Shown here piece by piece: positions 6,665 through 34,079 of a stretch of 64,000 nucleotides of DNA. The notes under the pieces are model-generated. The model was given only the letters and a program-made list of their open reading frames with translations, was not told the DNA's origin and made no database searches. The position numbers were made by a program, and so were the translations under genes. Position 1 is the stretch's first letter. Each line of letters begins with the position of its first letter. This DNA comes from Austropuccinia psidii (taxonomy: Eukaryota; Basidiomycota; Pucciniomycetes; Pucciniales; Sphaerophragmiaceae), in assembly GCA_023105745.1 (NCBI GenBank), contig JALGQZ010000009.1:19516564-19580563 (forward strand). Reading direction: 5' to 3'.

Positions 6665-6840
6665 ACAAATCTTGAAAAGGGACACTATAGTACAGTACAT
6701 GCAAAATCAAATTTTTTATTCTAGTTTATTTATCAGGTTTTTTTCCATTTAAGAAGTAATAATCAGATTGTATTACACCCACAAAAGCCCTTCACAAAAC
6801 CTTAATATTTCACTCTGCTAAACATCTATTTTTCTAGCTT

Positions 6841-9835: not shown

Positions 9836-9881
9836 CACCAGGGCGAATCTTGCGTCAATCGTCGGCGATTGACTTCACGTC
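9836..9881 (+). repeat. left terminal inverted repeat of the giant transposon
   Basis: It begins CACCAGGGCGAATCT and contains GTCAATCGTCGGCGATTGAC, an 8-bp perfect inverted repeat around TCGG, followed by TTCACGTC. It matches the reverse complement of 30984-31029 with three substitutions. The internal palindrome is identical at both ends and may be a transposase-binding site. Confidence 0.9.
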
Positions 9882-10020
9882 GCACCGCGGTCAGTATAAA
9901 ATCTTGCTTCAGTCTCGTTAGTGTCACTTTATAGTCACTGGATTTAGTGGGTCACGTCACGTCAGCGTCAAGACAACGTCAATTGTCACATGTGTCACAT
10001 GAGAATGTCACTCAAAGCCC
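9882..10020 (+). promoter_or_regulatory. left subterminal ACGTCA repeats
   Basis: ACGTCA occurs at 9954, 9959 and 9976, with further GTCA/GTCAC words between 9930 and 10010. The right subterminal region carries the reverse complement TGACGT five times. Subterminal repeats of this kind are transposase-binding arrays in CACTA elements. That role is inferred here. Confidence 0.6.
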
Positions 10021-10199
10021 AAACCCGTTTCAACACTATTCGCAACGTTCAGGTAATTTCACCTAATAGCTTCTGCCTCCCCGACGCTTAGCATGCTTAC
10101 GCGCCCGCACCACCCTCCAGATGAGACTCTGACACTGCCTGCCCCCCCATCTCCATCCTCACCACTCCTTACGCTTTCACACCCCCACCCTTACTATCC

Positions 10200-10735
10200 T
10201 TACGCTTGTGTAGTGCCCTCCCGACATGCTCCCGACACTGGTTACAATCCTTACGCTCGCGCAGTGCCCTCCTGACATGCTCCCGACGCTGCTTACGATC
10301 ATTATGCTCGCGCAGTGCCCTCCCAACATGCTCCCAACACTGCTTACGATCCTTACGCTCATGAAGTGCCCTCCCGCCATGCTCCCGACACTGCTCACCA
10401 TCCTTACGCTCACGGAGTGCCCTCCCGACATACTCCCGACACTGCTTACGATCCTTACGCTCATGAAGTGCCCTCCCGACATGCTCCCGACACTGCTTAC
10501 GATCCTTACGCTCGCGGAGTGCCCTCCCGACATACTCCCGACACTGCTCACCATCCTTACGCTCATGAAGTGCCCTCCCGACATGCTCCCGACACTGCTT
10601 ACGATCCTTACGCTCGCGGAGTGCCCTCCCGACATACTCCCGACACTGCTCACCATCCTTACGCTCATGAAGTGCCCTCCCGACATGCTCCTGACACTGC
10701 TTACGATCCTTACGCTTGCCTAGTAGGTACCCTCC
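10200..10735 (+). repeat. 51-bp minisatellite near the left end of the giant transposon
   Basis: About ten tandem copies of a 51-bp unit containing CTCCCGACA, CTGCTTACGATCCTTACGCTC and GTGCCCTC. Units alternate between GACATGCTCC...CATGAAG and GACATACTCC...CGCGGAG forms, giving a 102-bp higher-order period. Because 51 is a multiple of three, all frames on both strands stay open for long stretches. I do not treat those as genes. Confidence 0.9.
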
Positions 10736-10788
10736 CGACATGCCTCCGACGCCGCTTACCATCCTTACGCTTCCGTACTACATCCATA

Positions 10789-10814
10789 GTGTACGGTGGC
10801 TTGTTGGCGTACAC
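10789..10814. other. hairpin 1 of the palindrome family
   Basis: GTGTACG at 10789 pairs with CGTACAC ending at 10814, around a GTGGCTTGTTGG centre. It lies between the left minisatellite and the first gene. See the entry in findings for the six-member family. Confidence 0.65.
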
Positions 10815-11270
10815 AATGGACGCCATCGCCGAAATATGCTGAGTGGCCTTCTCTGCCAACAGGACCTCAGGGGAAATTGGTCAGTATATTCACAATGTTG
10901 TGGTTAGGGTTTAAATCATGAGACTCGCAAATTAAAACCTAATAAGTGGACTATTTAAGACAAGAATTGTGTCTCCTTTTTCGCCGACAAAATCATTTTA
11001 TTTCATATCATTCAAATGGAACACTTTGCTTAGTCCTTACCTCATGAGCGTTCAATAGTTCAAAAGTTGACTTTAGTAGGTTTCTCACTAGTCAACTTTA
11101 TTCAATGTCTCACAGGGAAGTGATTTCATTTGCATGATATGAAATAATTTGCAAAACATCGCCTCCTTCAATTTCCCGCCAAATCGCATTTTGCAAATGC
11201 GATTATTTTACTTCCACCTAGTTATCAATCAACTCGTCACCATCTATTTGCTTACTAAACTACCTCCGCG

Positions 11271-13512
11271 ATGGCCCAAACCCCGGGAAATTCAACGGAA
11301 TTTAATGAACGACCAACTTCAGCCCCAGAGAGTGGAAGTGAAATATCTGATATGGCCAGTAGTCGTGAATTAGGCATTGAAGCAGAGAGCCAGTCACATG
11401 AAGATAATCAAGATCCACCAGTTCTTCCAGAATGTGAGTATACATCCATCTTGAGTATTTCTAATCTCTCAAAACCTGATATTGTGTCATAGCCTTTATT
11501 TCAGGTCAACCTCCAAGCTCTCAGAAACCGAATTTTAAAACTTATGAGAAGGAAAAGACTGTTGAACCTTGTGCACCGACAGAAGATGATGGGCAAGATG
11601 ATGTAATTTTCAGTGGGGAGGTGGAAATTATATCCAAGGAACAATTTGTCTCCAACATTGCTCAAACAATCCCAAGGCTCGAGAAAATCCAAAATGATAG
11701 TAAAATTCCTGATTATGTGCGTCAAAAGATTGCTGAAGCCATGAGCCTGCTCAAAATGGATTTGAACCGTAAGTCCATTACTAATTCAAAACAAAGTTGA
11801 TAAAAATAGCTGCTTACAATATATGGGCAGGTGTGGAGGTGGGAGAATCTCTACCTGAAGGATCTCGAGTCGTAATTGGATTTCCAGGCAAAGGATTAGG
11901 AAAAAGACCAAATATACATGCGACCAAAAAAACCAACAAAAAACGCCGTACCTTTGAAGCCGCAAAGGATTCCCGGGATCAAGGTGATGAAATGATCAAT
12001 GTTGAAGGGGACGATATTGATAATGAACCTCCGCATACTGAACCCCCCCCCATACTCAATGAAACAATCCATGCTGAAGCTCCACATACTGAAAGCCCCC
12101 CGATACCCAATGAAACAATGCATGATGCAACCCCTCCCGCCTCTCCTCGGAATATTCAAGCCCCTCAAGAAAGGGAAACAATTAAACATGATACAATGGG
12201 ACGAGATATGACTGATATAATTCCCGACGCTGAGCCCGAAGTGTCATCCGCTGCGAATTTTCAAGGAATATTTTTATCCCGCATGGAAGAGTTTGCAGGC
12301 ATTTTGAATTATCATTCCAATATTTCTCAACAATCATGGAAAAGGGGGCTTGATAATATCAATAGGATTTACAAAAATAGATGGGACAATTTACCAACAA
12401 AGGATGCTCATACATTCCTGCCCGTTGGTATTAAGGTGATCAGTAACCGAGATCTTAAAATGTCGGCTTGGCTGCAGGACCTTGAGATGGCAGGTGAGTT
12501 TTTTTTTATCTTTGTGCATGATACTTGATTATTGGCTGTTGACTGGTGATATAAATTGCAATATACAGGGTTAGATTTTTTTAAGCCAACTGAAACAGAA
12601 GCGTTTTTTGATTACAACATTTGGAATCTCAAATTGATGAAGGAATCAGCTAAACCTCCCGATAATCTCCCCAAATCTGAACACTCCTTCTTCAAAATGG
12701 TTCAGAGCCTTCTTTACCCCGCGAATCCAGTTAAACATTTTTGGGCAAATGTTATGTTTGAATCCATTAGTTTAGTCTCATACGATGTGATTGCACCCAA
12801 ACCATATGTTGCACCAACATCAAATTCGACCGATCCTCTTGGACTCGAACGGGGAGCAGTTGAATACCTTGCCTCCTGCTTGAGTAAATCGAAGCAACGT
12901 GCAACCCAACTCAGCCTTGAAGGTGGCGGAGCTGACAATGAGATATCCACAAAGCCGCACAAGAACCTGGAGGATCTAATGGATACAGTTATCCATTTGA
13001 TGATTGCGTACAACATGGTACGTGCACATACAAAGGTCGAAGTTAATGGCATCAAAGGCAAACTCACGAACTCAAAAAAAAATGAGGCCATCAAAGATCT
13101 TTTGGCGTGTCACAAGAATCTCGGAATAAATCGAATTTGCTATGGTATATTAGCGGCATTCTGTGCGGCGGGGGTTCGTGGTTTGATGGTATGCTCAGAT
13201 GACTGGAGAACAAGCTCAGTTAAAGGGGCTTTATCACTAATTGACATTTCCGCAAAACTTTCAGAGGGTAAAAATCTAGTGGAGCCAGTGTGGCTACGTA
13301 CTAATAAGTATATATGTAATTTACTGAATAAAAGTTTCTTCTCATCAGAGTCTTTTAACCCCACTGTACCTCTTGAATTTGAATTTGCACGATGCTTAGT
13401 ATTAGACTTTGGTGATGCCTGGGTGGCGAAACGCGGTCTTGGTTCAAGTGATGAGGTCACCTTGACGGTACCCAGGTCAGCTAAACTCACAACCAGGATT
13501 GACCCGTTTTAG
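11271..13512 (+). CDS. unknown 677-aa protein, giant-transposon cargo, 4 exons
   Basis: I do not recognise this protein. The model joins exons 11271-11433, 11505-11768, 11831-12493 and 12569-13512. All three introns (71, 62, 75 nt) have GT donors (GTGAGT, GTAAGT, GTGAGT) and CAG acceptors. The spliced length is 2034 nt, an exact multiple of three with one terminal TAG and no internal stop. The N-terminal 140 residues are acidic and serine/proline rich. Around residues 170-183 there is a basic cluster (KKTNKKRR) that could be a nuclear localisation signal, then a low-complexity PPHTEPPP/PHTESPPIP repeat. The last 300 residues look globular. It is the first gene inside the left end, transcribed towards the TET/JBP gene, and a hairpin lies 119 nt after its stop. 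Confidence 0.75.
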
Positions 13513-14089
13513 ATTAGCTTTGTACTAGATATATTGTAATTTAATTTTGCAAAGTTATTTATGAATTTAATAATCATGACTTCCTATCCTACTACTGCCC
13601 GGATGCCACAGTCTGAGTACCAATAGTAATTGTACGGGGGCATGCCTCCGTACATCATTGCAAAGACTCCGCCAAGACGCAAGCTGAGTCAGGCTTTGTG
13701 CCCGCGAGTAGCACACTTGGGGGCATTGCGGGAAGTCGCGTTTATCACTTCCCGCCAGCCCATAATAGGCAAATTGTTACTGTGTCTTTCAAGAGGACTG
13801 GGATAACTAGGGATCCGCAGCAGGATGCATATTGCATTTGCGTGTGCTTGCAATATTCCAAATGGTTGGATTGGAAAGTGATTGCATGGGAACATCAATG
13901 TGTAAAATTGAATAATGCACTATCCACTGCAATTTTCAGGTTCAGGTATTTGAGATCGTGAAGTTGCCAAGGTCAGGCGTGAGCTTTCTTTTTAGCCGCA
14001 ATTAAAAAAGATTCATCCACCGCAATCCAATTTAGGTGATATTAATAAATCAGTAATCATTTGGTTTCATTTCATTTTCTGCTGCAAGC
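13513..14089. other. intergenic region between cargo genes 1 and 2
   Basis: It contains the hairpin at 13631-13654 and otherwise no coding evidence. The last 100 bases, rich in CATTT/TTTCATT, probably hold the promoter and leader of the TET/JBP gene. I cannot point to a clear TATA box. Confidence 0.45.
13631..13654. other. hairpin 2 of the palindrome family
   Basis: A 24-base near-perfect palindrome with arms TGTACGG/CCGTACA and centre GGCATGCC. It lies 119 nt after the stop of the 677-aa gene. Confidence 0.7.
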
Positions 14090-15433
14090 ATGCCATTCAC
14101 GAAAAAAGGAAAAGAGCGTAAAAGGGAACTCGCGAGAAAGCGTCGGGCTGAGGAAGGAAAGTGTGAGTTTCTCACTTAATCTCAGTGTATATATATAGAT
14201 ATATATATATGCTTCCACATTTATGTGGCACCCTCATTGGGCCCCACGGAAGAACATTGGCTTTAGTCGGTTCAGATTGTGCCAATGTCCTGTGGGCTCT
14301 AAAGGGAAGTCAAAGGATGTGTGCCGAAGAAAGCTGCTTGGCAGTATCTGATATCTTTTGTGCTTCAACACATAGTGATCCCGCAACCACTCGGGAATAG
14401 TAGCAGATCCCAAAAGACAAATGAGCGCAAAACAACCCGAATGAATAGGTTTTTTTCCTCCTCTCACCCAACAGCACAAATATCAATGCCAGTATCAGCA
14501 AATATCACCCCAAGTGAAATTCGGAGGGTGGTGGATGTCAATCAGATCAAACGCATTCACTTTGGCCGTGTGGCAATTTTCTCTTCAACCGGATTACTCA
14601 TTGCCCTTGTTGAATTCCGACCATTCACAACAATGAGTGAAGTCGAGGTCAATCAATGGGATGAATTATCACAATTCTTATTTCGCGAAAAGAGGTTCAC
14701 TGACCCTATTGCAACAAATGGAGCATTACTGGAGGGATTTATGTTCGCGATTGGGTGGCGCAAATGCACCACAAAGAATGAACAATTTGGTCTGTATGGT
14801 AGTGCTGGCAAAATTGAAAATGCAAAAGATGAATGGCGGGACCGAGGTGCCAATCTTAGCTCGGTGCGTCGCATTCTAGGTCAATCCTTACGATATGTTG
14901 GGGATAATTTATTTCAGAAGATTCAAAATTGCTACAATTCATTGGGGGTTCCGTCTTTTGATCAAGTCAACTATGAAGGCAATAATCCCGCAAATCAGGG
15001 TGCATGTGAGTTTGCTTCGGCACTCACTTTCACCATGAATGGATTCAAAAACGCACCTCATGTTGATAAGGATGCATCGCTGTATGCTTCGGGATGGTGG
15101 TTTCAAGCTGATAAGCGGACCGCCCAAATTCAAAGAGATGCGTCAAAGCGGTGTACAGGGGGAAAATTGATTTTCCCAAATGAGCATTTTTGGATTGATC
15201 TATCCGCATGTCATGGGCTCATTCAGGTAGTGTGGGCCAGTAGTACATTTGTTCATTATACTGATCCAGCACAGGACAACGAAAGCACGACACTAGTGGG
15301 TATGTCCGCACAATGCTCAAGGAGGTTGGCAAAAACAATGCGGCAAACAAGCCATGGCTATTATGAGATTGCCGAGAGAGCGGGCTATCAAATCAGGGAT
15401 GGTAATACAATCTCATGCCGATTCAAAGAGTGA
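14090..15433 (+). CDS. TET/JBP-type 2-oxoglutarate/Fe(II) dioxygenase
   Basis: Enzymes of this family oxidise methylated bases in DNA or RNA using Fe(II) and 2-oxoglutarate. The main exon is open from about 14303 to the TGA at 15433. Counting from 14321 as residue 1, PHVDKD gives the HxD iron-binding pair at residues 247 and 249. A distal histidine follows at 312 in STFVHYTDP, and an arginine in CSRRL at about 334 is placed to bind 2-oxoglutarate. The core also shows TGGKLIFP and the segment IDLSACHGLIQVVWASS, as in the Tet-like oxygenases of rust fungi. A short first exon from ATG 14090 (MPFTKKGKERKRELARKRR) ends at a GTGTGAGT donor near 14160. The acceptor is uncertain, with 14304 one frame-compatible choice. 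No stop interrupts the catalytic domain. The substrate base is unknown. Confidence 0.82.
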
Positions 15434-15560
15434 GGCAGTCGGAATAGCAGCGTGATTGGTAGATGATGGTGGGGTAAGGCAGAGGACAATATACACCAGG
15501 ATTGGATGGATTCGAGTGCGGGAGATAGGGTGTCTCACAGGAAAAAGGGGTGAAGTGGAT

Positions 15561-15588
15561 TATGTACGGAGGCATGCCATCGTACATA
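15561..15588. other. hairpin 3 of the palindrome family
   Basis: Perfect 8-bp arms TATGTACG/CGTACATA enclose the palindromic centre GGCATGCC. It lies 128 nt after the stop of the TET/JBP gene, mirroring hairpin 2 after the first gene. Confidence 0.75.
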
Positions 15589-15599
15589 TGCCAGGTTTG

Positions 15600-16225
15600 T
15601 TGCTCTTGTCCAGGATCCCAACGCTTCACACGCGAATCCTTATGCTTGTGCAGGTGCCGACAATGCTAAAAGTTTCTTACTCCTATGCGGGGTGCCGAGG
15701 CTTCACACGCCAATCCTTACGCCTGGGCAGGTTCCCGACAACTCACACGCCAATCCTTACGCCTGTGCAGGTTCCCGACAGCTCACACGCCAATCCTTAC
15801 GCCTGTGCAGGTTCCCGACAGCTCACACGCCAATCCTTACGCCTGTGCAGACTCCCGAAAGCTCACACGCCGATCCTTACGCCTGTGCAGGCTCCCGACA
15901 GCTCACACGCCAATCCTTAGGCTTGTGAAGGTTGCCAACAATGCTGACAATTTGTTATGCCTGTGCAGGCTCCCGAAAATTCACATGCCAATCCTTACGC
16001 CTGTGCAGCCTCCCGACAGCTCACACGCGAATCCTTAGGCTTGTGAAGGATGCTAACAATGCTGACAATTTCTTACGCCTGTGCAGGCTCCCGACAATTC
16101 ACACGCCAATCCTTTCACCTGTGCAGGCACCCGACAGCTCACACGCCAATCCTTACGCCTTTTCAGGCTCCCGACAGCTCACACGCCAATCGTTACGCTT
16201 GTGAAGGTTCCCGACAATTTAAACA
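15600..16225 (+). repeat. 40-bp minisatellite between TET/JBP and zinc-cluster genes
   Basis: Tandem units of 40 bp contain GGTTCCCGACAGCTCACACG and CCAATCCTTACGCCTGTGCA, with some diverged units (AATGCTGACAATTT). The words TCCCGACA and ATCCTTACGC are shared with the 51-bp minisatellite at 10200-10735, and CACACGCCAAT is shared with the 30-bp minisatellite at 30270-30690. The open frames across it are products of the repeat. Confidence 0.9.
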
Positions 16226-16639
16226 ATTCAATACATGACTAAGATTAATAGCGTGTGACCATAGGAATGGCAATTTCTCATGAATCTGGAGTGGATTGCT
16301 CACATGCCGGAACCTCCCGCTTTTTTACAGTTGAGATTTGATATGGCTCTAAACAATGGAGGAAGAAAATATAGGAGGCAGGAATGGTGACTATTGGTGC
16401 ATTTTTGGCAAAAGATTTTCTCACATACAAAAATACTAACTCAAACTTTTGGTGGGGCACTTACGAAAATTATTCTCACCCAATAGTAAATATGAATCAT
16501 TGAGGAATTATAATAAATTCACGTGAACAAAAAACGTAAGAGAAATTGAAAATATCTTTCATTGAATACAAATAATTTATCTAAAGGAGTGTATTACAAA
16601 AGGTAAAAAGAGGAAAGAATACGATTTTTTTTGTGGATT
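16226..16639. other. intergenic region, 3' flank of the zinc-cluster gene
   Basis: No gene seen. The AT-rich stretch 16480-16630 probably carries the 3' untranslated region of the minus-strand gene ending at 16640. Confidence 0.4.
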
Positions 16640-18020
16640 TTATTTTTCTAAGAATTTGGAGACTATCCCGGTGATGTCCTCCATTGGATAAGCCTCTATC
16701 GCCTCGCCAAGGAGGGAGTTTAGTTCCTCCCGGAATTCCCGGTGCATCTCATTTCGATGAGTTGCATCCACGAAAGGAATCATGTGGAGCAACCGACGAT
16801 GCTCCAACAAGATTCGGTTGATCGATTCGTGGACGATGGCTCGAGGAATCATTAGTATCGGGCGCAGGTCGGTGAATTCCTGGCGAGCGTCATCGTAGGA
16901 ATGAGAGGAGCTTGGCACCGGGGGGGAGGAGGCTGTTGGGTTCTCGGCGTCAATGGGAGGGATATCCGGGGAAGGAACCGGGGTAGGAGTGGTGGGAGGG
17001 GGAACAGGAGGGGAAGGTGGGGGAGTGGGTGAAGAAGAAGGTGGAGGGGGAGGGGGAGGAGGGGAACCGACTGGCGTATCGTCGATGATGATAATGGAGC
17101 GGGGAGTTGCGGGACGAGCTGGAGATGGTCGAAGGAGGGGTGAGGAAAAGTTGAGTTGAGTTAAAAAGGTGAAATAGGGACTTACCAAAAGGTTCCTCCG
17201 TTGATTGCGTAGGAGCCACCTCAGGTTGAGGCTCACGAGTTGCAATGTCCTCAGGTGGTTCGGAGGATGGACTCGGGCCAGGAATAGGTGGCTCATCGTG
17301 CTGGGAGGCTTCTACAAAAGGAGGAAGAGTCAGTTAACTTGATGCGAAAGTGAAAATGAGAAAAGAGAAAGTTGGCTGCTTACCGCGGAATAAGTCCTCA
17401 GACCATCGGGTGCCACTCGGGCCTGGAGTGGGTTGCCGCGGGGTTTGCTCGCGAGGCAAAGTAGGAACGGGAGAGTCTTGTCGGGGGGGATTAGGGGGGT
17501 TTGGTTCTATGAGTAATGGAAAAAAGTGAGTATTATTGCGTGAAGATAAATGAGAGAAGGAGGAGAAAGAAAACTTACTTTGGCGTTTGAATCCCATCGG
17601 TGACAAGACATGGTGACGATCAGCCCAAGCTCGAATGTCCTCTTTCCATCGCCATCCTTCATCGGCCGGATAATCACTTCGCTCAGGTCGAGGAGTGAAG
17701 TGACCATCGGATGGTGGCCTAGGAGGGGGGGTGGACAAATCGATGCTTGAGGGGACTGGGCTAATCGTCCTGAATCGTTCCCGCTGGCCTGTTTGGGGTC
17801 CCGGGGTCCACTCACGCTCGGAAATCGTTTCATCATCATCGGCCACAAAGGAGTCCTGGCGAGGGCGTCTTGGGCGGGAACTCCTCTGGCCGCGGGGTCG
17901 GAAGGGGCGGACGACGAACGAACATTTCTTGTGTGCTTGTCGGCAAGCATCACAAGCGTCGGTTGTCGTCGAGGAACGAATGCAGGGGATACCCCGCTTG
18001 GTGCATAACGTGCACGACAT
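16640..18020 (-). CDS. zinc-cluster (C-x2-C-x6-C pair) proline-rich protein, 389 aa, 4 exons
   Basis: Exons on the minus strand are 18020-17579, 17506-17384, 17311-17186 and 17118-16640. The introns are 72, 72 and 67 nt, with GTAAGT or GTAAGC donors and AG acceptors. The spliced length is 1170 nt with no internal stop. A further 71-nt intron (18091-18021, donor GTATGT, branch site TACTAAC) ends directly before the ATG, so the gene probably has a spliced 5' leader. The N-terminus has six cysteines at residues 3, 6, 13, 23, 26 and 33 (C-x2-C-x6-C-x9-C-x2-C-x6-C), resembling the fungal binuclear zinc cluster. Next come an arginine-rich stretch (RPFRPRGQRSSRPRR), long proline/serine tracts, and a charged alpha-helical C-terminus (ESINRILLEHRRLL). 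A DNA-binding or chromatin role is an inference. The antisense gene at 35040-36280 has the same cysteine module. Confidence 0.75.
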
Positions 18021-18600
18021 CTAAAAACAAAACAAAACAGGTTAGTAACTGAATAGAAAGTAAGCAATCAAGAAAGAAAAGGAGGACATACGATGATTTA
18101 TAATTTTAAAACGGAATTCAAATTAAAAAGACTCTAGTAGGAGGTTTTTAAAAGTCTAGAAGAGAGTCGTGAAGAAAGAAAATGATTCATATCGGACCAT
18201 AATGTTGACAAAAGTTCAATTGGAGAAAACGTACAAAGTAGATAGAAGTGGGGTTCTGAAATTATCAGCAGGAAAAACAAAAAGCGAGCAGGAAGGGGAG
18301 TGGGGTTAGTCAAGTGCAAAAGAAAAGACTGGAAAGGCAGGAAGACGAGGGGGAATACGCACAAGAAGGACAAACGCGGGTGACGTTGAACGAAGTGGAG
18401 CGGGTGAGAGAGAAAGTGAAGTGCGTGTCGTGTGAAGATGGTCTTTTATACCAAGGTGAAGCTGAGACGATCGCAGCAGTTTCAGCACCCGCAAAAGTCT
18501 CAGCTTCAAGGTGTGTGGGCAAAATTGAAGCTGAGTCTCAGCGAATGCTGCAACTGAGAAGTGAAATTCTCGCGTGAGGCAGAAGAACAATGGGGGTCTG

Positions 18601-19346
18601 GCTGAGTATTGCAATTTATTGAATTGTCAAGCTGAGTCAAATCCCCTTTGTTTCCTTAAATAGCCACCCGATCACCCAAGAGGGTGGTCGTGAGGCCCTT
18701 GTTGAATGTGCATTCAACGTGCAATGCACAAGTGACCCATGCAGAAATGCACCCGGTGCATTTGGTCACAAGTGACCGCGGCAAGATCACCGGCCGTATG
18801 GCCTGGTGATAGTCTTTGAACAAAGGGGGGGGCTGTAAGACAAGTGAATACAGCGTGAGCTTGCCTCGACCCATTGCTCAGGTTTGCTTTCGGGTCATAA
18901 TTGAAATGCGCAGTGGCTGAACATTTTAATTGCACAGTAATTGAACAATTGATATAACAATATCGAATGCACCGCTGAGTATTGCAATTTATTGAATTGT
19001 CAAGCTGAGTCAAATCCCGTTTCTTTCCTTAAATAGCCACCTGATCACCCGGGAGGGTGGTCGTGAGGCCCTTTTTGAATGTGCATTGTGGGTGCAATGC
19101 ACAAGTGCCCCATGCAGAAATGCACCGGGTGCATTTGGTCACAAGTGACCGCGGCGAGATTACCGGCCGTATGGCCTGGTAATAGTATGTGAACAAAGGG
19201 GGGGGCTGTAAGACAAGTGAATACAGCGTAATCTTGGCTTGACCCATTGCTCAGGTTTGCTTTTGGGTCATAATTGAAATGCTCAGTGGCTGAACATTTT
19301 AATTGCACAGTTGTTGAACTATTGATATAACAATATCAAATGCACG
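18601..19346. repeat. 373-bp tandem duplication
   Basis: Two adjacent copies, 18601-18973 and 18974-19346, both start GCTGAGTATTGCAATTTATT and include AGGGTGGTCGTGAGGCCCTT. They differ at scattered positions. After the second copy, GCTGAGC words continue to recur up to about 19640. No gene is supported here. Confidence 0.85.
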
Positions 19347-20539
19347 ATGCTGAGCAATTGCTAGGTCATTTTTGTAAGCACACAATCTGAGCATTTGGCA
19401 CAGCATCAGATGACATTTCAGCCAGGTGCAGCATTTCACACGCTTTGGTGAAGTGCTCCAAATTGAGCCTTCCAGTGAGCTATTGCAGAATTAGTTCATT
19501 CCATGGCTTTACTGAGCACTTTCACACGGTGCTTTTGACCATGACATGCTCAGCTTGCGTGTGCAAATCGGGTGAAACGCAATGCTGAGCATGTGGCACA
19601 TGAGCTACGTAAATGCAAACGATCGGAAGGTGCATGCACATTTGCTGTATGCATGCAGGCTCAAGTAGTATTACACCTTCCTGATCTGTACAGTCGACAC
19701 TGTAGTACGCAGTACACCTTTGTAAATGTACTGCGGGGCAGAGCAAAAAGCTGTTCAACAATGTAACATGCAATCACGTCAAGCCATCGAGTCATATCTC
19801 TCACCTGCATCCCTTTGATGCACCTTGTTGGACAGCTCTGCCTAACTACGGCACAGATGCGCATGTAATGCAAGTTAATGTAAGTGGGTCATAATGGGAT
19901 GACTTAATATTTGGGTCATACACAAAGAGTTGATTCACTCCGGTTCCATTGTTGGGGCAAACAATGACTGGCCCGCTTGTTCATTGTCGGGCAGCCACAC
20001 GCTTTCATGCGCACCCCCGATGGGTCATACGCAGGCAGCTTTCACACGCCTGGAAGACATTTTTCTGCCAGTCTTCCAGCTGCCTATTTTCTTGGTCGGG
20101 TTGTCAGCTTGACTGCAGACGCTCACCCGCTTGCGCGTGGAAACCTGAGGCCAATCAGTGTGAATTTGCTTCAGCCTCATCCACATTAGAATAACAATCC
20201 CAGCCTATGATTGCTGAGGCTGGTCATGTTTGCGTGGGTATCTCCCACCGCGGGTCATTTTCTTCACGTTCTCACACGCCCCGCGCAAGTTGTGGCACCT
20301 GGCTTGCAGCCAAAAAATCCCTGGGGCGTGTGGCCTCTTTCCTCCGGAGTTTTGTACACGCCTGAAGCAAAGACCCTGATGCCAATCTCGGTAGATTAGT
20401 ACTCGCCTCAAACGCCATAGGGGTGAATGTATATGTGGATCACGGCTCACGGATGGCGCCCCTTTAATCATCCTACACATTCCCCCCTGAAAGCCCAGTA
20501 TGCATCAGTCAGCAAAAAACTTCACGCAAAATCAAAGTC

Positions 20540-20565
20540 ATGTTTGGTGGCACGCCACCGAACAT
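20540..20565. other. hairpin 4 of the palindrome family
   Basis: Arms ATGTTTGGTGGC and GCCACCGAACAT enclose a short centre with one mismatch. It is one of two hairpins 0.4-0.5 kb upstream of the SNF2 start. Confidence 0.75.
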
Positions 20566-20678
20566 ATCTCACCCGCCTACACACAAGCATCCCCACAGTG
20601 AGATTGCCCTTTGAAACCGCCAAAATTGCCCAGTAGGTCCCTGTGCGACAATTAACCTGAGGAAGATATATATGCATC

Positions 20679-20706
20679 CATGTTCGCTGTCACACCAGCG
20701 AACATG
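20679..20706. other. hairpin 5 of the palindrome family
   Basis: Perfect 11-bp arms CATGTTCGCTG/CAGCGAACATG enclose a 6-base loop. It is the longest perfect stem of the family and lies 366 nt before the SNF2 start codon. Confidence 0.8.
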
Positions 20707-21071
20707 ACTGCATGCCTCTGATATGCCCTCCACAATAAGTTGCTACAACCCACCCAATTTCGGATGTGCTAAACTCAACCTTGTTCCACCAAAGTTTTCG
20801 TAAATCGCTGCAGATCCAGCAGTCATAATGGTGCACCCACATTTTGGCCACCTTGCCTTGATATATGCCCCAAATCGGATATGAAAATTATGTGCCCAAG
20901 AGGCCCACCTCCATCAAGACCATTCACGTAACCACAGGCCATCCCCCTTTTGGCCTGTTGCTGCCACTCATATAAGCTCCCCACCTGCGCTTATTGCGCT
21001 TCATTCCCTTTAGCTAACCCTTCCCGATCATATAATTTGCAACTGTCCCCAAATAATTTAAAATAGCCATC

Positions 21072-23638
21072 ATGTCAACGCCTTCACAACCACTTTGCAT
21101 TGGGATGATTAATATTCGTATTCAAATAAATAGTGATATAACCTTAAAGCCTGAGAATTCCCACTTAGGTTCTTGGATTATCCTATGGCACAATCAACAC
21201 AACATATTCGTATATCTCCCCAATCACCAGCATGCTATTGGCTCTCTCCCGGGAACCCTTTCCCAAACGTTGATACCATTCCTTGGGGCACCAAAAACGT
21301 TCATGCACTGTGGTCCTGGTGGGGCATGGATTGAAAATTGCCAATCAAATCCTACTCAAATATTATTCGTTGAGGGAGTATTTATGACTGATGCAAATGA
21401 TCCCTCCTCATCTCAGAAACCCAATCTAGCATTGATGTTCTTCACATGGTATCCAAACATTCTATTCATAATGGAAAGCTTTCGAACACAAGATTTCAAG
21501 CTTAAAATGCCCAAAGAATATGACTGTACTACTCATTGTCAATGTCAACTCTTTACTCCAACATTTCCCGCTTCAAACTCGATGCCTGCTTCATATCCTG
21601 CTGTTTCATCATTGATTTCCAAGCAAAAACTGATACAATTACCCAGTGGATCAGACCTCCCCATGATAACCCCGCCCCATGCCATTATTCCAACCCCCCT
21701 CCTCCCTCATCAAAAGACCGGACTAGCTTTCCTCTGGGATTGAGAAATCCCCAATGGCCAATCAGCCCGTAACCTTTGGGCCACCTCACCCCCAGGATCC
21801 ACTTTCAATGCCAGGCACATCATTACAAACAAGGTCGTTAGCTCATTTGAATCCCTTTCGACCAATACCCCTCTTGGAGGACTGCTCGCGGATGATATGG
21901 GATTAGGTAAAACCATTCAGGCCATTGCTCTAATTGGTACCTCCAAGGAGCGGATGATTGCAAACCCCCATCGCTCCACGCCCACCAGGATCATCTGCCC
22001 CCCTCGCTTAATTACCAACTGGCAATCAGAAATATCCAAGCATGCTCAGGCTGGAGCACTGCATGCCAAAATCTACCATGGTCCCACTCGTCACTCATTA
22101 TCCCAAGCCGACATTTTAAAATATGATATCATCATCACTTCTTACAATACTATCACCCAAGAATTTAAGCAAACCAATCCCTCTACATCATTCATTTTTC
22201 AAATCAATTGGCATCATATAATCTTGGATGAAGCACAGTGAGTGGCTGAGCTTAAATGATTCAAATTACCTTTTATATCCAATAACCCTTTCCCCCTCTT
22301 ATAGCTATATTCGCTCTCAATACACTGCCACTCACCGTGCCATTAATAGCCTCCTTTCATCCCGTCAAATATGTTTAACGGGCACACCTATTCACAACAC
22401 CATTTATGACCTTTTGGGCATAATATCATTCATCACTCAACCCCAGAGCGCCGATCAAGATAACTGGTCACCATTCATCCTGAGTAGTCTTTCAAAAGGT
22501 TGCAATGATATTTTGCATTTGTCATTGCGGCATTTAAGTTTGCGCCGCACCAAAACCACACATCTCAAATCCCTCCCCACTATTAGCCATCATTATGAGC
22601 TGCTCCCACTCAACCCGACCATGCAGCAAGAATATTCCATATTATATGAAGAATTCCTCTCATCCAAAAGCAAAGGACCAGGAGAATTTTTCAGAAATAT
22701 TAATAAGCTGCGAATATGTTGTAACCATCACATCATGCTTAACACAATTGCGGAGGCGGAGTTGGAAGACCCCGAGGGCAGGAGCACTCAGGATAACTCC
22801 CCAAGAATCACACGAACTATTGTGGATGTGGAAACATGCATGATGAGTAGTAAAATTGCACACCTCCTACAAAGCTTAATGAAGAACAAACAAACAAGGT
22901 GTGGTCCGACGAAATCGGTGGTTTATACCCAATGGACCCAATTTCTAGATTTGTGCGTTAATTCTAATATGCATCCATTACCAATTGACTCCATCTGACT
23001 TTTTTATATTGTAGAATTGGTATTGCTCTTGCCCATCACTCTATCCTTTCAGCACGAATTGACGGAACTATTACACCACGAGCGCAGGACAAGGCGCTTG
23101 AGAGTTTCTTCAATAATCCTGAATGTGAAGTACTCATTGCATCCATTGCCGCGGCTGGAACTGGCCTCAATATAACTTGTGCTAATATAGTCTATTTGAT
23201 GGTGAGGGGCCCCCCAAAATTCTCCCCTGATTTTCGGACCCTGACATCCACATTTCCAGGAGCCCAATTGGAACCCAGCCATTGAGGCTCAGGCTGTTGA
23301 TCGTCTACATCGTATTGGCCAACAACAACCTGTACAGGTCATCCACTATATCACTCCTCATTCAGTTGAGGTCAACATGCGGAAGGTACCTTTCAAGCTC
23401 ATCTTTCACTTGATTGTATTACTATTCTGAAATCCTTCCTTATGGGAATGCCATATTCCAATCACCAATAGGTCCAAGAAAAGAAACAATCATTAACTGC
23501 GTGAGCCTTACTGATATTATATAATTTGTGATTGACAAAGTTGATAACTCCTGTTGACTCTGGCACAGGTCCACAATTATGAACACCATGAGCTGGATCG
23601 AACTTCTTAAATATTTCCTCAATGAAAATGAGCAATAG
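21072..23638 (+). CDS. SNF2-family DNA-dependent ATPase, 741 codons with one internal stop
   Basis: SNF2-family proteins use ATP to move along DNA and remodel chromatin or protein-DNA complexes. The model joins 21072-22237, 22305-22952, 23015-23201, 23260-23385, 23472-23500 and 23569-23638, which sums to exactly 742 codons. Splicing the first intron turns DEAQ-stop into DEAH. Motifs in order: LADDMGLGKTIQA (Walker A, lysine about 280), DEAH at 386-389, LTGTPIHN about 413, CCNHH, VVYTQW, AAGTGLN, and DRLHRIGQ at 681-688. The first 200 residues are unrecognised. One in-frame TGA at 21741-21743 (codon 224) precedes the ATPase core and could come from a CGA codon by C-to-T change. The 3' end faces the convergent partner gene 172 nt away. 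Function in this copy is doubtful unless the stop is read through. Confidence 0.85.
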
Positions 23639-23810
23639 AGTATTATTGCAAGGGAGATGGTGATACATTTCAATTCATATTGTCTATATTCTAACATATT
23701 TAGCAAGTTGTTTCATCCTTAAGAGATAATAATCAGATTTTATTACACCTGCACAAATAATTCACAAAATTTTAATTTGTCACAGTGCTATACCGTGACA
23801 AATTACTAAG

Positions 23811-25872
23811 TTATTGCAGAGCATCACCATTAGGCCTAATAACTGGCATGTCAAGTATCTTGAGGGCGCTAGTCTGCATCTTACTACAGCCTTTGAGCCA
23901 ATCTTGATCAAATACCTGAAATGATAGGCCTTCCGGAATATAACCATCATCTGTCGATCGTAATTCTGGCAATCTATCAATAGTTTTTTTACCCTTTTTT
24001 TTAATCCGATTACAAAACTCTATGTCTCTATCCATTTTCAATACCAAATCATTAAATAACTGGGAGCGCCAGCGTAATCCCACTTTGCGGTAAACTTGAC
24101 GGCCATTTTCCAGTATTTCCTCAGTATCTGAGCATACTCGAGGGTCATTGAATTGTGATGCTAGGATGGGAAATTTAGCCGTATCACACCATTCATGACG
24201 GCGCTCACAGGTCTGCACATAATCAAGTAGATCATCATCAGACTTGGTCCACAATGAAGAAGAGATACAGTAACTAACTCTTTGACGAATCTTCGCGAGC
24301 TTTTGATTCTCCTTCTTTTTAACCAAATACTCCGCATCCTTTTGAATAGACTTCCATTCTCTTTTCAAATAAGTGAAATATCGCTCCATTAAAGCTGCCA
24401 CGACCCCATAGTTGTTATGATCCTTGTTCCAACAGTAGTGATGATACTCAGTGCTGACAAGTGCGAGACGGAATGTACGGTAAAACACCATAGACATCAG
24501 CTCGTTAAACGGATGTTGCCATGAGCTCTCCCAGTCTCAAGTGAATCGCTTTAGTCCTAGCTTGTGGAGCTCATTTTCGCAGTAGCTTTGGAAACCCTGA
24601 GACTGAACCTGTGTTGATGGCTCATTGAAAACATCCTCGGGGACATAACCAAGATGACCAGCCACTTTAATTGCAATTTCACGCTCTTCTGTGCTGGGTG
24701 GTGCTGGTAGTGAGGAAAAATCCTTATCCCTAACTTTGAGTAGGAACAGGCAATGTGCGTGTACTGCTGATCTCATTCCATGGACATTCTCTGGAAGTTC
24801 TGCCTTCAGCCATTTTTGTTGCTCCTTCTGGCTTGCACGTTACGCCACATTGTGAGCTTTGCGGGCCTGGTTCCTTTGCTGTCTGACCTCGGATTGTTCA
24901 AGCATACTCTGGGCAAGGCCCAGCTGAGGATGGGTGAACTCACTATTTGATTGAGTGCCTTGCTCATGCGCGGTGAAATTGTCCCTCGTTGGTTCATCAT
25001 TTCTTTCACTTTGAGTCGGAGACATGTTCTCATCCTCATCATCCACCATTCTTTCTCTTGATGTACTGGCATGACCCGTTCTTGGTTTGGAGGCATATGG
25101 ATGATGACGTCCAGTGACTTTCTCTTTATGGACCAGAGGTGAAGACGCATAAAGTTCATCCCCTGCCATGCAAATCATCAGTTAACACATCAAAACATTA
25201 ATGAAGACTGGTGATACTCACGATCTTCAATTGGCTCCTGAGATCGGACTGACTTGCCTTTAGGTGCCATATCTAACCCATGAAACAAACATATCAAATT
25301 GTGAATAAGTTTCTACTCCAAAATTCAAATGACTTACTTTGATGAAGCGTCAATACTGGATTTCCCTCCGACAGACCGCTCCAAGAGACATTTTCCAAAG
25401 GTCTTTTTCGTCGCCCCCCATCCACGCGCCTTTCATCACCCACATGAACCTGAGATCCTGATGGAATATTGAGGGTTGGCTGTTTACTTTGGCCAAAGGG
25501 ATCCTGGGATGCGACTGGATTCCGACCGGGATTAAGGAGGAACTCACGTGGAAATTTTGATTGGGGATTAGCGTGTGATGAGATTTGAGGTGTGCCTTCT
25601 GGCCCCTGAGACACATGAATTTGTGTATTAGTGGGATTCGGGGGAATTGGAGTGACGGAAATATTTGGGATCGACCAAGTGCTTGAAGTTGGAGCCTTTG
25701 GATTGCCCACATCAATGTTAAGACCTGATACATTCATTGAGGATGCGATAGGGGTTGTGAGAGGAATGTTGGGACTCAATGGTGACTGTGTTTGAACATA
25801 TTCTATGCTAGATTCACTATTTGAGTCATGAACAGAACCTGAACGGGATTTATGTGACTTGAAAGATGACAT
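23811..25872 (-). pseudogene. Plavaka partner gene (second ORF of the transposon), 645 codons with two internal stops
   Basis: Exons on the minus strand are 25872-25338, 25272-25222 and 25162-23811. The introns are 65 and 59 nt, with GTAAGT/GTGAGT donors. The total is 646 codons including the stop. The N-terminal half is serine, proline and asparagine rich and looks disordered. The C-terminal half (LMERYFTYLKREWKSIQKDAEYL..., then VCSDTEEI, then LFNDLVLKMD) follows the layout of a protein that usually accompanies Plavaka/KDZ-type transposases in basidiomycetes. Its biochemical role is not known to me. TAA at 24840-24842 (codon 303) and TGA at 24537-24539 (codon 404) interrupt the frame. The older copy at 6841-8881 has sense codons at both sites, so these stops are later mutations. 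It is divergent from the transposase gene, with 960 nt between starts. Confidence 0.75.
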
Positions 25873-26832
25873 AAGGGCTGAAAAAGTACACTAATATTTT
25901 TAACTAGATAAAACACCTCAGTATTATGATAAAATAGAGTGATATGAGATGAAATCTTTTCAAATTTAGAATAGAGAAATTCTATGAATAGTTGGAACTA
26001 AGTGTTGTGTGGAAGTCGGATAAGACTCTTTTGAGGAGAATCCTCCCTGCCTCCTCTTGAGCTCCTCCGCTTTTGCCGGAAACCACCCTGCACGGCCTAC
26101 CAGAATATAATGTGATATTTCCTTGATCTGAAAGGGGACCCATCATCCATAAGTAATCATATTTGGTAACATTTCCGCCTCCCCATTGTCACATTTTGTG
26201 AATTATCCAAACTGCCAATATATGCATTGAAATTCCACAACATTGTACATCTGTAAAGGGGTATATTCATGAAGGATTTACCCACAAAAGAGACATCACC
26301 TTTTCACGAAAGGCAAGACAATCCAAATCACATTCCAACTGATTCAAAGCCCGCCGCACTCAAACCAAATACCAAGACTTTAGCTGCACTCCACCCCCTT
26401 ATGTAATAGAGTTATATAGTTATGTCTGTAATAAGGTTTAAACCATGTACGATGGCGTGCCAGCGTACATGGGTTAAATGTTAATCCCCTCAATTCAATG
26501 GTAACACTTCACTAATGGAACCCCCTCAATGGTAAAACCCGCACTATCACAATGTGTAAATAAACTAGAATATGTATGAGCATTGAGCAGCATGGCATTT
26601 TACCCAATTAAACGCCTAACCAATTCCGCCATCCAGATGAGACATGTTAAACTTTATCCACTGCAGCTCATGCTCCATTACAAATGGGATAAAATCCTCA
26701 GCTGGCTCAAATCATCTCCCCCTTCATAAATAATCACTGAATTTTATTTCCAATTAATAACACTCCTAAACACTTTCACATCAACCATAGATATTTATAC
26801 ACAAACCAACCGGACTCCCGATTCCTGCAACA
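25873..26832. promoter_or_regulatory. divergent promoter interval of partner gene and transposase
   Basis: The 960 bases between the two divergent start codons hold hairpin 6 and no reading frame. The part up to about 26425 is conserved in the old copy at 8882-9440, which suggests a functional leader or promoter. The last 120 bases before 26833 are AT-rich with ATAAATAATCAC and likely contain the transposase start site. Confidence 0.5.
26443..26472. other. hairpin 6 of the palindrome family
   Basis: Perfect 9-bp arms CCATGTACG/CGTACATGG enclose ATGGCGTGCCAG. It lies in the shared promoter interval between the divergent partner gene and transposase gene. Confidence 0.8.
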
Positions 26833-29800
26833 ATGACAACCCGGCCCTATTCCTCAATGCGTATATGCATGTGTCAACACTGCTCAACTCAAACACACTC
26901 TTCCCCTGAGGGTGATAAGCAAGGAGTTGCCTTCACACCTTTCCAATATAAACAGCACATTAAAAAGCTCAAATCAACCCTTGCACCCAAATCTCTTCCA
27001 AACATCCCTACTTCTGCATCAGGATCTGGGTGCCCACAAATTCTATTGGATCAAATCTTCCCAGCTGATTATTCACGTTTGACCCAAAGCACTTTCCCAA
27101 CTGCAGCGGGTCTCAATTCAACTGCACAGAAACCATATAGTGGCAGTCAAGCCCTTCCCCCACAAGACCTAGGAATGATAATATCTGCCATTCTATCATT
27201 AAGGTATAATTTACCCCGCAGGGCTTCATGCATACTCAACCCCGCCCTGAACCTGCTGATCAAGTCCAGTATCTCAAGCTCAGCTGGTCCCCCCGCTCCT
27301 GCATTCCATATACCTCAAGATCTGAGTACCATATTTGAACATCTCCAATTGGAGCCAGTGATTCAAAACTATATATGTTGTCCTCAATGTTTCTCTCTTA
27401 ATGGCCTTACTGAATCAGTCACAACTGACCAACCCCACTGTCAACGCCATAATGACCCAAATGATCATGAGCCCCCTTGCACACAATCATTAGGCAAATT
27501 CATCTATTCATCTGAACCCCACACCCAAAACACAACCAACATGAAGCAAAAATTTATACCAACAAAACATTTCATTTATCAACCATTCAAAAATTGGCTT
27601 GCCAGATTTCTCCAGCGGGCTGAAATTATGGACATTCTGCATCAACATCAACAATCCCAAACTCCCGAAGATTCCCCAAAACGTGACGTCTGGGATGGAT
27701 TGGTCTGGAGACGCTTCACTGGCACTAGAAATATCCATGACCCCCCATTCATGTCCATTCCTGGTGCATTGGCCTTCTCCATATATGTGGACTGGTTTAA
27801 TGCACATGGAAAGTCAACCCGGTTGGCTAGCATTGGACCTATCATGCTTATTTGTCTTAATCTCCCCCCAAGTGAAAGATTGAAGCCCGAGAATGTCTAT
27901 GTTGCAGGAATCATCCCTGGTCCGAAGGAGCCAACTGCGCTTCAATTGAATTATCTATTAATGCCACTCATCAACGAGCTCAAAGAGCTATGGCAGGGTT
28001 ACCATTTTGCACCCACCTCAACAGGTCCATCAGGATCCTTTATCCGTGTTGCCATCCTCACAGCCATTGCGGATGTGGTTGCCATGCGCAAGCTTACTGG
28101 ATTTATTTCCCATTCAGGAAACCACTTTTGTAATTTTTGCACCATTCACAAAGCTCAAATTGAAGAAATTGGTCCTCAATTTCACTACACACGCTCATAC
28201 CAAAGTCATAAATCAACCATTGCCAAATGGCTTCGGGCAACCCCACAACAAAGACAAGCAATTTTCTCTGAGTATGGAGTGCGATATTCAATTTTGGAAG
28301 ACCTTCCGTATTGGGATGCAACCAGAATGGTTAATCTTGACATAATGCATAATTTAATACTTGGAATTTTGAAGGATCATGCAACTTTCAAATTGTGCAT
28401 TCCAGAGGCGAAATCAAAAATTTACTTCAGGTCCCGCAGGAAATCCAATGACACCAACAGTTCAGACTCAGATTCCAAGACCTCCAACAGCTCTCTTGAT
28501 AAAATCACATTGAGAGAGGCCCGCTCCCTGAGAAGAGACGCAGCAAAAATAATAAATGAGCCACTCCCCACTACTTCCACCCGAAAAAACTACTTCCCAA
28601 TGCCCACCCCTAACACAGAACATCCATCTAGTGGCTCTGCGGAGATTCCTTCATTTGATGCCGATTACATCCCCACTTCTGAAATACCCTCTGAATTGGA
28701 TATTACTGCACTGAGTGATCACCAGATCAAGGGTGAGGCTCTTGAGCATCTCCGACAAATCATATCTGAGACCATAATTCCCTCATCATGGACAAGAGTT
28801 CCCCGCAAAATGGGTTCCCCCTCTCATGGTAGCTTAAAAGCCGCTGAATGGGCTCTCTTATATAAGGTCTATATTCCATTTCTAATGCTCAGTCAACAGA
28901 TGTCATTAGATGCACACCAATCTGCCAACACTCAAAGAAAAATGGGTCAGTCAGAAGAACTTGCAAATGAACTAGCCAAGAATACATTCCATTTGATTAG
29001 TGCTATCAACATTGCCACAAGCTGGACTGTTTCAATAGATGATGCGACTGCATTTGCTGAACATTGGAAAAAATTCCGCCTTTCCAATCAACACCTGTTC
29101 CCAAAACAGAAAAGTAAACCAAATCATCATTTTGCTGATCATATTCCCGAACTCTTCCAACGTTGGGGCCCAGCACAAGCCTCAGCCACATGGGGTTATG
29201 AGCGCTTGATTGGAGTATTTGCAAAGATGCCAACAAATAACAAGATATGTACGTCAATTAATAAGATCAATATATTCACATTGATGAAACACCTGAACTG
29301 AATAAGACTAACTTTTTGCAACTCTGAATAGATGATATAGATAAAACCTTACTTCAACATATCTGTCGATGTTCCAACCTTTCCGTTCTCCTGAAATCCC
29401 CATCTGTGCCATGTGAAATAAAAAATCTTTTCGAATCACAGCCACCTGCCGTGTTCAATCACCATAAATATAACAAGCCATCCCGCCATGACCAACAAAA
29501 TTATGCTTGCCTGGTTGATTACTTACAGAATTTTCATTCCACAAGGGAAGTAGTTGATTGGATCAGCTTAGACACTACCATGCAATCCACAAGTCCTCCC
29601 ACTTCAAGGATTGTCTCACCTTGGTATTTTCCAGTTTCAAACATTAATATTGGGAACAATATATTTTCAACTGAATCCAAAAATATCAGCAACAGTGTGA
29701 TATGTTTTCTGAGGGGCAACTCACGACAATTTGGTATTATTGATAGCATTTTCAAAGTCTCTGAGCCATCTAGCATACTGAATAATAACTTTCTGATTTT

Positions 29801-29993
29801 AAAAACTTTGAAGATTGATGTGAATTTCCTACCAGATTGGTCGTATCTCAATATTTATAAAGCTGTTGGTTTTGATGATGGACACTTGATTATATCAGAA
29901 GAAGAAATAGAAGGTAACTGTGGATTGTATGATAACAAAGCTCTGTCATGTGGACTGCTTGTAATGATAAAGCCGTTATTTCATGATATTTAG
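26833..29993 (+). CDS. Plavaka/CACTA-type transposase, 1025 aa, 2 exons, open
   Basis: The transposase should excise and reinsert the element by acting on the terminal repeats. Exons 26833-29248 and 29332-29993 flank an 83-nt intron (donor GTACGT, branch GACTAAC, acceptor ATAG). The spliced frame is 1026 codons with no internal stop. Visible parts: N-terminal CMCQHC (residues 12-17), a second cysteine/histidine cluster from about 181 (CCPQCF...CQRH), YVDWFN with candidate catalytic aspartate 320, GIIPGPKEP, HFCNFCTIHK zinc-binding residues, YWDATRMVNLDIMHN with aspartate 503, and KAAEW with candidate glutamate 672. These match the layout of Plavaka-type CACTA transposases. It is the only gene near the right end. 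A second intron starting at GTAACT near 29914 is possible and would change the last residues. Confidence 0.9.
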
Positions 29994-30269
29994 TCTACAA
30001 AAATGCAAATCTCTCAGATTCATTAGCAATTTTGCTAGTGAAATAATTGCCTCAAAATTTAGTGACAGAGACATGCCATTGTGACAAGCAAAGCCCATTA
30101 TTTCACATTGCCACAAAGAACTTACTATTTTGACATTGGGTACAGTGTGAATAAGCCAAGTCCAATGATCAAATGACCCACACACTCACCTTTCATAGCA
30201 TCCAAAATTTCTAACTGCGCCATCATCATGTTGGAAGCGGAATCGGCTTTTGCGTACCCACACCCGCAT
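29994..30269. other. 3' flank of the transposase gene
   Basis: No gene seen. This AT-rich 276-base stretch is probably the transposase 3' untranslated region and leads into the GC-rich minisatellite. Confidence 0.4.
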
Positions 30270-30690
30270 GTGCACCCGCACGCGCCAATGCACACGCCCA
30301 CGCACCCGCACATGCCAATGCACACGCAAACCCACCCGCACACGCCAATGCACACGCAAACCCACCCGCACACGCCAATGCACACGCAAACCCACCCGCA
30401 CACGCCAATGCACACGCAAACCCACCCGCACACGCCAATGCACATGCCCACCCACCCGCACCCGCACACGCCAATGCACACGCAAACCCACCCGCACACG
30501 CCAATGCACACGCAAACCCACCCGCACACGCCAATGCACACGCAAACCCACCCGCACACGCCAATGCACACGCAAACCCACCCGCACACGCCAATGCACA
30601 CGCAAACGCGCCCGCACACGCCAATGCACACGCAAACGCGCCCGCACACACCAATGCACACGCAAACGCGCCCGCACACGCCAATGCACA
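30270..30690 (+). repeat. 30-bp minisatellite near the right end of the giant transposon
   Basis: About 14 tandem copies of a 30-bp unit made of CACGCAAACCCACCCGCACA and CGCCAATGCA, with a CCCGCACCCGCACACG variant in the middle and CGCGCCCGCACACG variants near the right. All six frames are open across it because 30 is a multiple of three, so the long open frames are not genes. Confidence 0.92.
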
Positions 30691-30904
30691 CGCACACTTC
30701 ATGGATGACCTGGTGAAGTCAAACCCCCCGCCTACATCAAAACTGGCTGAAAGACATCTTTGATGTGTGTGTGTGCAAACAGGCGGGTCTGGTGTAATTT
30801 TTACCAATCATCGGACGGTTGTGGGATGATCAGGTGGTGAGGAATCTGAGTTGAAGGCACAGGGGAACCAATATTATTGGATGTCACAGGATTTGGTGTA
30901 AGAC

Positions 30905-30983
30905 CAGAGTGTGACGTGTGCTTGACGTTCGCTTGATTTTCGCTTGACGTGAGCTCGACTTTTATCCTGCTTGACGTTTGCTT
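30905..30983 (-). promoter_or_regulatory. right subterminal TGACGT repeats
   Basis: TGACGT occurs at 30912, 30923, 30945, 30972 and 30983, four of them as GCTTGACGT. This mirrors, inverted, the ACGTCA words inside the left end. Subterminal repeats next to terminal inverted repeats are usual transposase-binding arrays of CACTA elements. Confidence 0.65.
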
Positions 30984-31029
30984 GACGTGAAGTCAATCGC
31001 CGACGATTGACACGAGATTCGCCCCGGTG
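30984..31029 (-). repeat. right terminal inverted repeat of the giant transposon
   Basis: It is the reverse complement of 9836-9881 apart from three substitutions. It contains the same 8-bp palindrome and ends with CCCCGGTG, then the AGT duplication at 31030-31032. Confidence 0.9.
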
Positions 31030-31032
31030 AGT

Positions 31033-34066: not shown

Positions 34067-34079
34067 GTATCCCCCTCTT
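34067..34079 (-). other. polypurine tract
   Basis: Read on the minus strand, AAGAGGGGGATAC lies directly before the TGTAACAACC start of the 3' LTR. This is the expected site for plus-strand priming. Confidence 0.75.

Follow-up and report, generated by a model that had tools for sequence, protein, structure and literature searches.

Transposons of the EnSpm superfamily that carry a gene for a Tet-like dioxygenase (TET+ EnSpm) have been described in rust fungi (Pucciniales), with Austropuccinia psidii among the species named (Kojima 2025, PMC12730594). The parts of that paper devoted to them define fungal EnSpm by CAC..GTG ends and a target-site duplication (TSD) of 3 bp, both present in the Pucciniales families, and propose that the transposon-borne TET counteracts C-to-T hypermutation, a function that lacked experimental validation. 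The Kyakuja elements of mushrooms are also DNA transposons with a TET gene, and oxidised methylcytosine around their copies is cited in the same source, where they differ by another transposase superfamily, a 7-bp TSD, the lack of terminal inverted repeats (TIRs) and an AG-type TET (PMC12730594). Our analysis of a 64,000-nucleotide stretch of A. psidii DNA (the window) concerns a TET+ EnSpm/CACTA DNA transposon of 21,194 bp (9836-31029), whose class and mobility we regard as nearly certain. The kind of element is known; what is new is the SNF2 ATPase gene that accompanies TET in the cargo, and the contrast in CpG content. The same pairing of enzymes occurs in trypanosome JBP2, where a TET/JBP dioxygenase and a SNF2 ATPase are fused in one protein that acts on thymine, whereas our transposon has a separate gene for each and its SNF2 protein looks Rad5-like. 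In plants, TnpA of Spm/En and VANC are anti-silencing proteins encoded by transposons, and there are CACTA elements with subterminal repeats, but we know of no TET or SNF2 in these systems.

The element belongs to a family that is real, young and very numerous, and its six genes have moved as a unit. Its left 401 bases were searched against a single genome, an assembly of 1.015 Gb, and 40 matches were scored of 2947 first-look candidates: the copy in the window and 39 others at 99% identity. The first 20 of these others were fetched, which are the top-scoring ones to the window copy and a sample biased toward its close relatives. All 20 share the precise first base and the TIR type, while their surroundings differ. 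The right end was sought in 19 of them, leaving out copy L009, whose match to the element stops after about 2 kb. The right TIR was located in 15, which puts the element at between 19,946 and 22,758 bp, and the 3-bp duplications at both ends always match (15/15); this TIR was absent from the stretch examined in the other four. These copies bear out the mobile family that a first-pass annotation of the window had predicted. Genome-wide, a 35-letter TIR pattern with at most two mismatches had 3644 matches (1823 + 1821) and its reversed control none; were every match paired, this would correspond to about 1800 copies. We checked pairing among 100 listed matches, all exact and all on contig C1, so that mismatched partners fall outside the list. 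Their 31 adjacent plus/minus pairs comprised 22 at 20.1-22.2 kb, five at 30.7-35.7 kb and four farther apart, against a random expectation of 0.2 pairs at 18-24 kb. The element is neither confined to one locus nor devoid of TIR pairs at about 21 kb, the two outcomes that the annotation had named as contradicting it.

The insertion itself is equally clear. The two 46-bp TIRs (CACCAGGGCGAATCTTGCG... on the left, CACCGGGGCGAATCTCGTG... on the right) are alike in 43 bases, AGT stands on both sides, and taking out the element with one AGT restores a long terminal repeat (LTR). Once joined, the flanks match two further copies of this LTR in the window, each in one alignment that spans the junction (position 1500), from 1106 to 2915 with 51154-49329 (86.4%) and from 1109 to 2909 with 59308-57500 (85.5%). 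The boundaries first proposed are confirmed, as is the description of a complete, multi-gene, CACTA-like element inserted in an LTR. Its recent movement had been suggested from the open transposase and the low divergence between the TIRs, and the second argument fails. The left-end sequence CACCAGGGCGAATCTTGC is found in 20/20 left ends, and the right-type base in 15/15 right ends at TIR positions 5 and 18 and in 14/15 at position 16; other combinations occur in the wider list of 3644 matches. Since the difference between left and right recurs across copies, it is inherited and gives no measure of the age of the window copy, and we rejected it as a clock. Recent movement is supported instead by the near-identity of the copies, which show 0.25% changes at A/T sites relative to the majority in each column.

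The assignment to EnSpm rests on the transposase and the ends. As had been claimed, the transposase frame is open over exactly 1025 codons without an internal stop, and its main exon is open in all four sequences available, the window copy among them. The frame of this exon scores 56.9 bits with Transposase_21 (tnp2, CACTA) for a cut-off of 28.6, and 25.1 bits (1.2e-5) with the Plavaka family PF18759 for a cut-off of 26.3. CAC..GTG termini are present throughout (left ends CACCAGGG in 20/20, right ends CCCCGGTG in 15/15), together with the 3-bp TSD in the 15 paired copies and in the window copy. Classical CACTA elements have a five-base CACTA end, which is absent here, where the ends read CACCA and CACCG. 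A pattern search of the protein shows CNFC at residue 447 and, near residue 780, HFADH; these may or may not be the C(2)C and H(3-4)H motifs that EnSpm transposases have between the second D and the E. A PDB sequence search with the protein returned one chance-level match. The first-pass annotation had spoken of a Plavaka/CACTA-like element. The weak match to the Plavaka family is what would favour a Plavaka or KDZ transposon, but this score is under the cut-off while that of tnp2 is twice its own, the ends are CACC..GGTG instead of either Plavaka type as defined in the relevant part of PMC12730594 (TGT..ACA or CATCA..TGATG), and the TSD has 3 bp instead of the 7 bp of Kyakuja or the 8 bp of Dileera given there. 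We therefore rejected membership of both groups on score, termini and TSD, and consider it very improbable. The Pucciniales TET+ EnSpm, as presented in PMC12730594, share with our element the EnSpm-type transposase with a resemblance to Plavaka, the CAC..GTG ends, the 3-bp TSD and the Tet-like dioxygenase gene.

The same comparison qualifies the earlier suggestion that no rust element with this cargo had been described: the class has been, in A. psidii by name, whereas SNF2 has no occurrence in the main text of PMC12730594, whose A. psidii family may be this one, and its parts on TET+ EnSpm analyse neither the copy number nor the CpG content of that family. Literature searches found no report of fungal transposons pairing TET/JBP with SNF2, and nothing related for SNF2 with a CACTA transposase in fungi. 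The SNF2 gene was fetched in four copies, and the transposase in three, besides those of the window. Five helicase motifs (DDMGLGKT, ILDEA, LTGTPIHN, AGTGLNI and QAVDRLHRIGQ) are present in 5/5 copies; the last exon was not found. In a PDB sequence search the best match is RAD5 (7.2e-11), which would suit the Rad5/HLTF subgroup of SNF2. Among the best 120 of 4558 relatives, A. psidii supplies the first ten, at 71-84% identity, the next, from another fungus, drops to 33%, and none is a named Puccinia protein, many of the entries being nameless. One SNF2 relative and one relative of gene F have locus tags four apart, each on a 10,839-bp contig, which suggests that they share a neighbourhood in isolate MF-1.

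The frame of the TET gene is open in 16/19 aligned copies, and in 14/19 it is open and has both the HxD and the distal-H motifs. The window copy has the iron-ligand motifs, and across the copies HVD occurs in 15/19 and FVHYT in 16/19; which H is the distal iron ligand we infer from the sequence. A PDB sequence search with TET gave no match up to E 1. Tet-like domains are abundant in the genome at large, with 7499 first-look candidates, of which the 150 scored were all above the cut-off.

The best explanation that we can offer for the mechanism, at about even chances, is that the element carries an anti-silencing kit in which TET would be paired with a SNF2 motor. The DDE transposase would cut and paste at the TIRs, and the Tet-like oxygenase would oxidise 5-methylcytosine (5mC) in the DNA of the element, whose chromatin the Rad5-like SNF2 ATPase would open. 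The Zn2Cys6-like protein may direct the action of TET and SNF2 to the CpG-rich subterminal arrays, and at least the source copies would escape methylation and its mutagenic consequence. If this is true, the element may undo the methylation by which the fungus silences it. With SNF2, the cargo has a second activity that bears on silencing. A role of TET against silencing, already proposed for the class, is likely; it is less certain that SNF2 contributes and that TET and SNF2 jointly spare the source lineage the decay of its CpG. The broadest version is rather unlikely: a two-part machine for demethylation, made of TET and SNF2, would shield the source copies and leave the lineage CpG-rich in a CpG-depleted genome, while the competing Gypsy retroelements would have taken the opposite route and persist nearly without CpG. 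The idea that TET opposes hypermutation becomes testable by counting in this family, given its thousands of TIR matches, its near-identical copies, the old and nearly CpG-free relative close by and the retroelement sequences inside its copies.

Such counts show a strong decay at CpG. In the copies of gene A, TET and the Zn2Cys6-like gene, the rate of transitions per site and copy is 0.061 at TCG, 0.020 at the remaining CpG sites and 0.002 at C/G outside CpG, a ratio of 16.7 for CpG overall to other C/G, and any change at A/T amounts to 0.0025. This bias toward CpG and TCG fits the decay of methylated cytosine. A TCG bias is cited for Pucciniomycotina in the part of PMC12730594 concerned, and 5mC has been called genome-wide in A. 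psidii (PMC12774611, in the portion on methylation). Published accounts of repeat-induced point mutation (RIP) disagree in the passages that address it: homologs of the RIP methyltransferases were found in A. psidii (PMC8063080), DIM2 and RID are reported absent from Pucciniales (PMC12210899), and the RIP genes are said to be absent (PMC12774611), at odds with the first of these. The only feature here that could bear on RIP is the CpG/TCG mutation bias. Decay at the measured rate should strip a lineage of CpG, and this has happened in the surroundings. Yet the observed/expected ratio (O/E) of CpG is 0.67 in the element and 0.66 in its non-coding, non-array part, compared with 0.00-0.25 for the flanks, the old copy and retroelement sequences of young age. 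The flanks of the 20 copies hold 4.2 CpG per kb on the left (single flanks 0 to 24), compared with 38.8 in the first 9.5 kb inside, and 5.9 on the right, compared with 43.3 inside, in the copies with a right end.

The chief rival to an anti-silencing module is youth: CpG richness would reflect the age of the copies, or a recent origin in a genome without strong CpG decay, and TET and SNF2 would be irrelevant to it. We take this as a serious possibility, somewhat short of an even chance. The family copies are very young, and in the parts of PMC8063080 and PMC12774611 on this matter younger transposable element (TE) families of A. psidii hold more CpG in general. However, CpG is scarce in three retroelement sequences that are as young or younger, two of the three being one family. 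The first is a Ty3/Gypsy element of the window (33299-43611, minus strand), with LTRs 99.5% alike and a full set of domains, interrupted by an in-frame stop between the reverse transcriptase and RNase H frames; its CpG O/E is 0.16 internally and 0.04-0.07 in the LTRs. The others are two retroelement-like pieces inside transposon copies, with CpG O/E of 0.20 (7.5 kb) and 0.25 (3.1 kb), which are probably younger than the copies that hold them; both continue to the limit of the sequence fetched, and their nesting is itself deduced. Copy L009 is, from 2468 to its end, a relative of the window Gypsy (93.9% over 4 kb) with the same LTR end at its start, which appears to have inserted in a transposon copy. 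As one of the nested pieces is such a relative, about two families are represented among the CpG-poor controls. The contrast between the element and these retroelements is more than youth alone can account for. A second argument comes from the old relative that borders the split LTR (Table 1), 79% identical and nearly CpG-free, which suggests a long residence of the lineage. Some 40 sites that are CpG in the element read TpG or CpA in this old copy (43 such differences in either direction, with 3 CpGs shared), so that the common ancestor was probably CpG-rich too. The window apparently has three nested layers: the old relative of the SNF2 end and gene F ends at the LTR, in which the young element was later inserted.

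Several observations weigh against a protective role of the cargo. Protection is clearly incomplete, because the CpG sites of family copies mutate at many times the rate of other sites. Younger TE families of A. psidii have higher ratios of methylated CpG than older ones, which is the opposite of a general escape, in the portion of PMC12774611 on the subject, where this family is not singled out. An insert of 463 bp in copy L014, too short for a TET gene, is likewise CpG-rich (O/E 0.62), as youth would have it; it begins with TGTCACA, ends with TGTGAC and is possibly a non-autonomous DNA transposon. The other objections come from the cargo genes, and they favour the view that these are captured passengers, neither helping nor hindering the element, which decay. 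Exon 1 of the SNF2 gene is open in only 2/5 copies: an in-frame TGA at 21741 interrupts that of the window, and 1/4 other copies has the identical stop. Gene F has two stops in the window copy, and in-frame stops occur in 6/18 copies of gene A and 4/18 of the Zn2Cys6-like gene. The alignments comprised 21 sequences (the window copy and the 20 others), minus those missing, partial or with inserts: L009, L013 and L014 for gene A, L009 and L019 for TET, and L009, L013 and L024 for the Zn2Cys6-like gene. With these rows dropped, the counts of open frames may be somewhat favourable. In the comparison of young copies, purifying selection on TET did not reach significance (excess of synonymous changes, P = 0.067 in singletons and P = 0.35 in shared changes), nor did it on SNF2 (P = 0.29 and 0.63). 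The transposase, in a sample of four copies, has 26 nonsynonymous to 5 synonymous changes, not different from neutral. A nominal synonymous excess was found for singletons of gene A (P = 0.04) and shared changes of the Zn2Cys6-like gene (P = 0.005), and nowhere else. As expected, so weak a signal in young copies fits neutral decay after insertion, and it fits passengers equally. Against passengers stand the TET frame, open in most aligned copies, and the absence of short elements: none of the 31 listed adjacent TIR pairs is closer than 20 kb, so that cargo-free derivatives were not seen in that sample. Internally deleted derivatives are common in families of DNA transposons. TET genes also recur in seven rust transposon lineages, according to the part of PMC12730594 that treats them. 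We hold it unlikely that the cargo consists of passengers.

Table 1. Positions of features of the transposon and its surroundings in the window
Feature	Position	Strand	Details
Old relative of element 23085-26415	6110..9440	+	79% identical; CpG O/E 0.07; ends at LTR start
LTR split by the element	9441..32446		Pieces 9441-9835 and 31030 to ~32446; contiguous in two other LTR copies of the window
AGT, TSD on the left	9833..9835
Left 46-bp TIR	9836..9881	+	CACCAGGGCGAATC...; left end identical in 20/20 fetched copies
Subterminal tandem array	10190..10771		51-bp unit x 11.3
Gene A, unknown function	11480..13512	+	Spliced frame of ~630 codons; introns 11769-11830, 12494-12568
Tet-like 2-oxoglutarate (2OG)-Fe(II) oxygenase	14441..15433	+	PF20515, 8.6e-46
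Tandem array	15703..16216		40-bp (118-bp) unit
Zn2Cys6-like gene, proline-rich	16643..18020	-	C-x2-C-x6-C-x9-C-x2-C-x6-C at start; Pfam Zn_clus only at E 0.46
Segment of 373 bp, two tandem copies	18601..19345		92%
SNF2/Rad5-like ATPase	21072..23385	+	Exons 21072-22237, 22305-22952, 23015-23201, 23260-23385; GT-AG introns; PF00176
Gene F, unknown function	23814..25890 (about)	-	Two in-frame stops in window copy
EnSpm/CACTA-type transposase, 1025 codons	26833..29993	+	ATG at 26833; one GT-AG intron, 29249-29331; Transposase_21 2.2e-15
Subterminal tandem array	30273..30694		30-bp unit x 13.9
Right 46-bp TIR	30984..31029	-	Ends ...CCCCGGTG
AGT, TSD on the right	31030..31032

The five genes announced besides the transposase are all present (Table 1), and three of them remain to be described. 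Relatives of gene A come from A. psidii in 28/28 cases. Gene A and TET were considered as a single gene, as 5 of these 28 predicted relatives hold both parts; we rejected this and take the joint models for prediction artefacts, since two other relatives end at the stop of the window gene A. The six-cysteine spacing of the minus-strand gene at 16.6-18.0 kb is presumably that of Zn2Cys6 domains. Gene F has 173 relatives, all from A. psidii among the 120 matches listed, and two of them read through both stop sites of the window copy. Structure prediction for a relative of gene F and one of gene A gave a mean predicted local distance difference test score (pLDDT) of 49 and 42, respectively, too low for use. 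Elsewhere in the window, the Gypsy element contains two extra plus-strand frames of unknown nature (34941-36280), and a 275-bp tandem repeat of 2.9 copies lies at 44755-45554.

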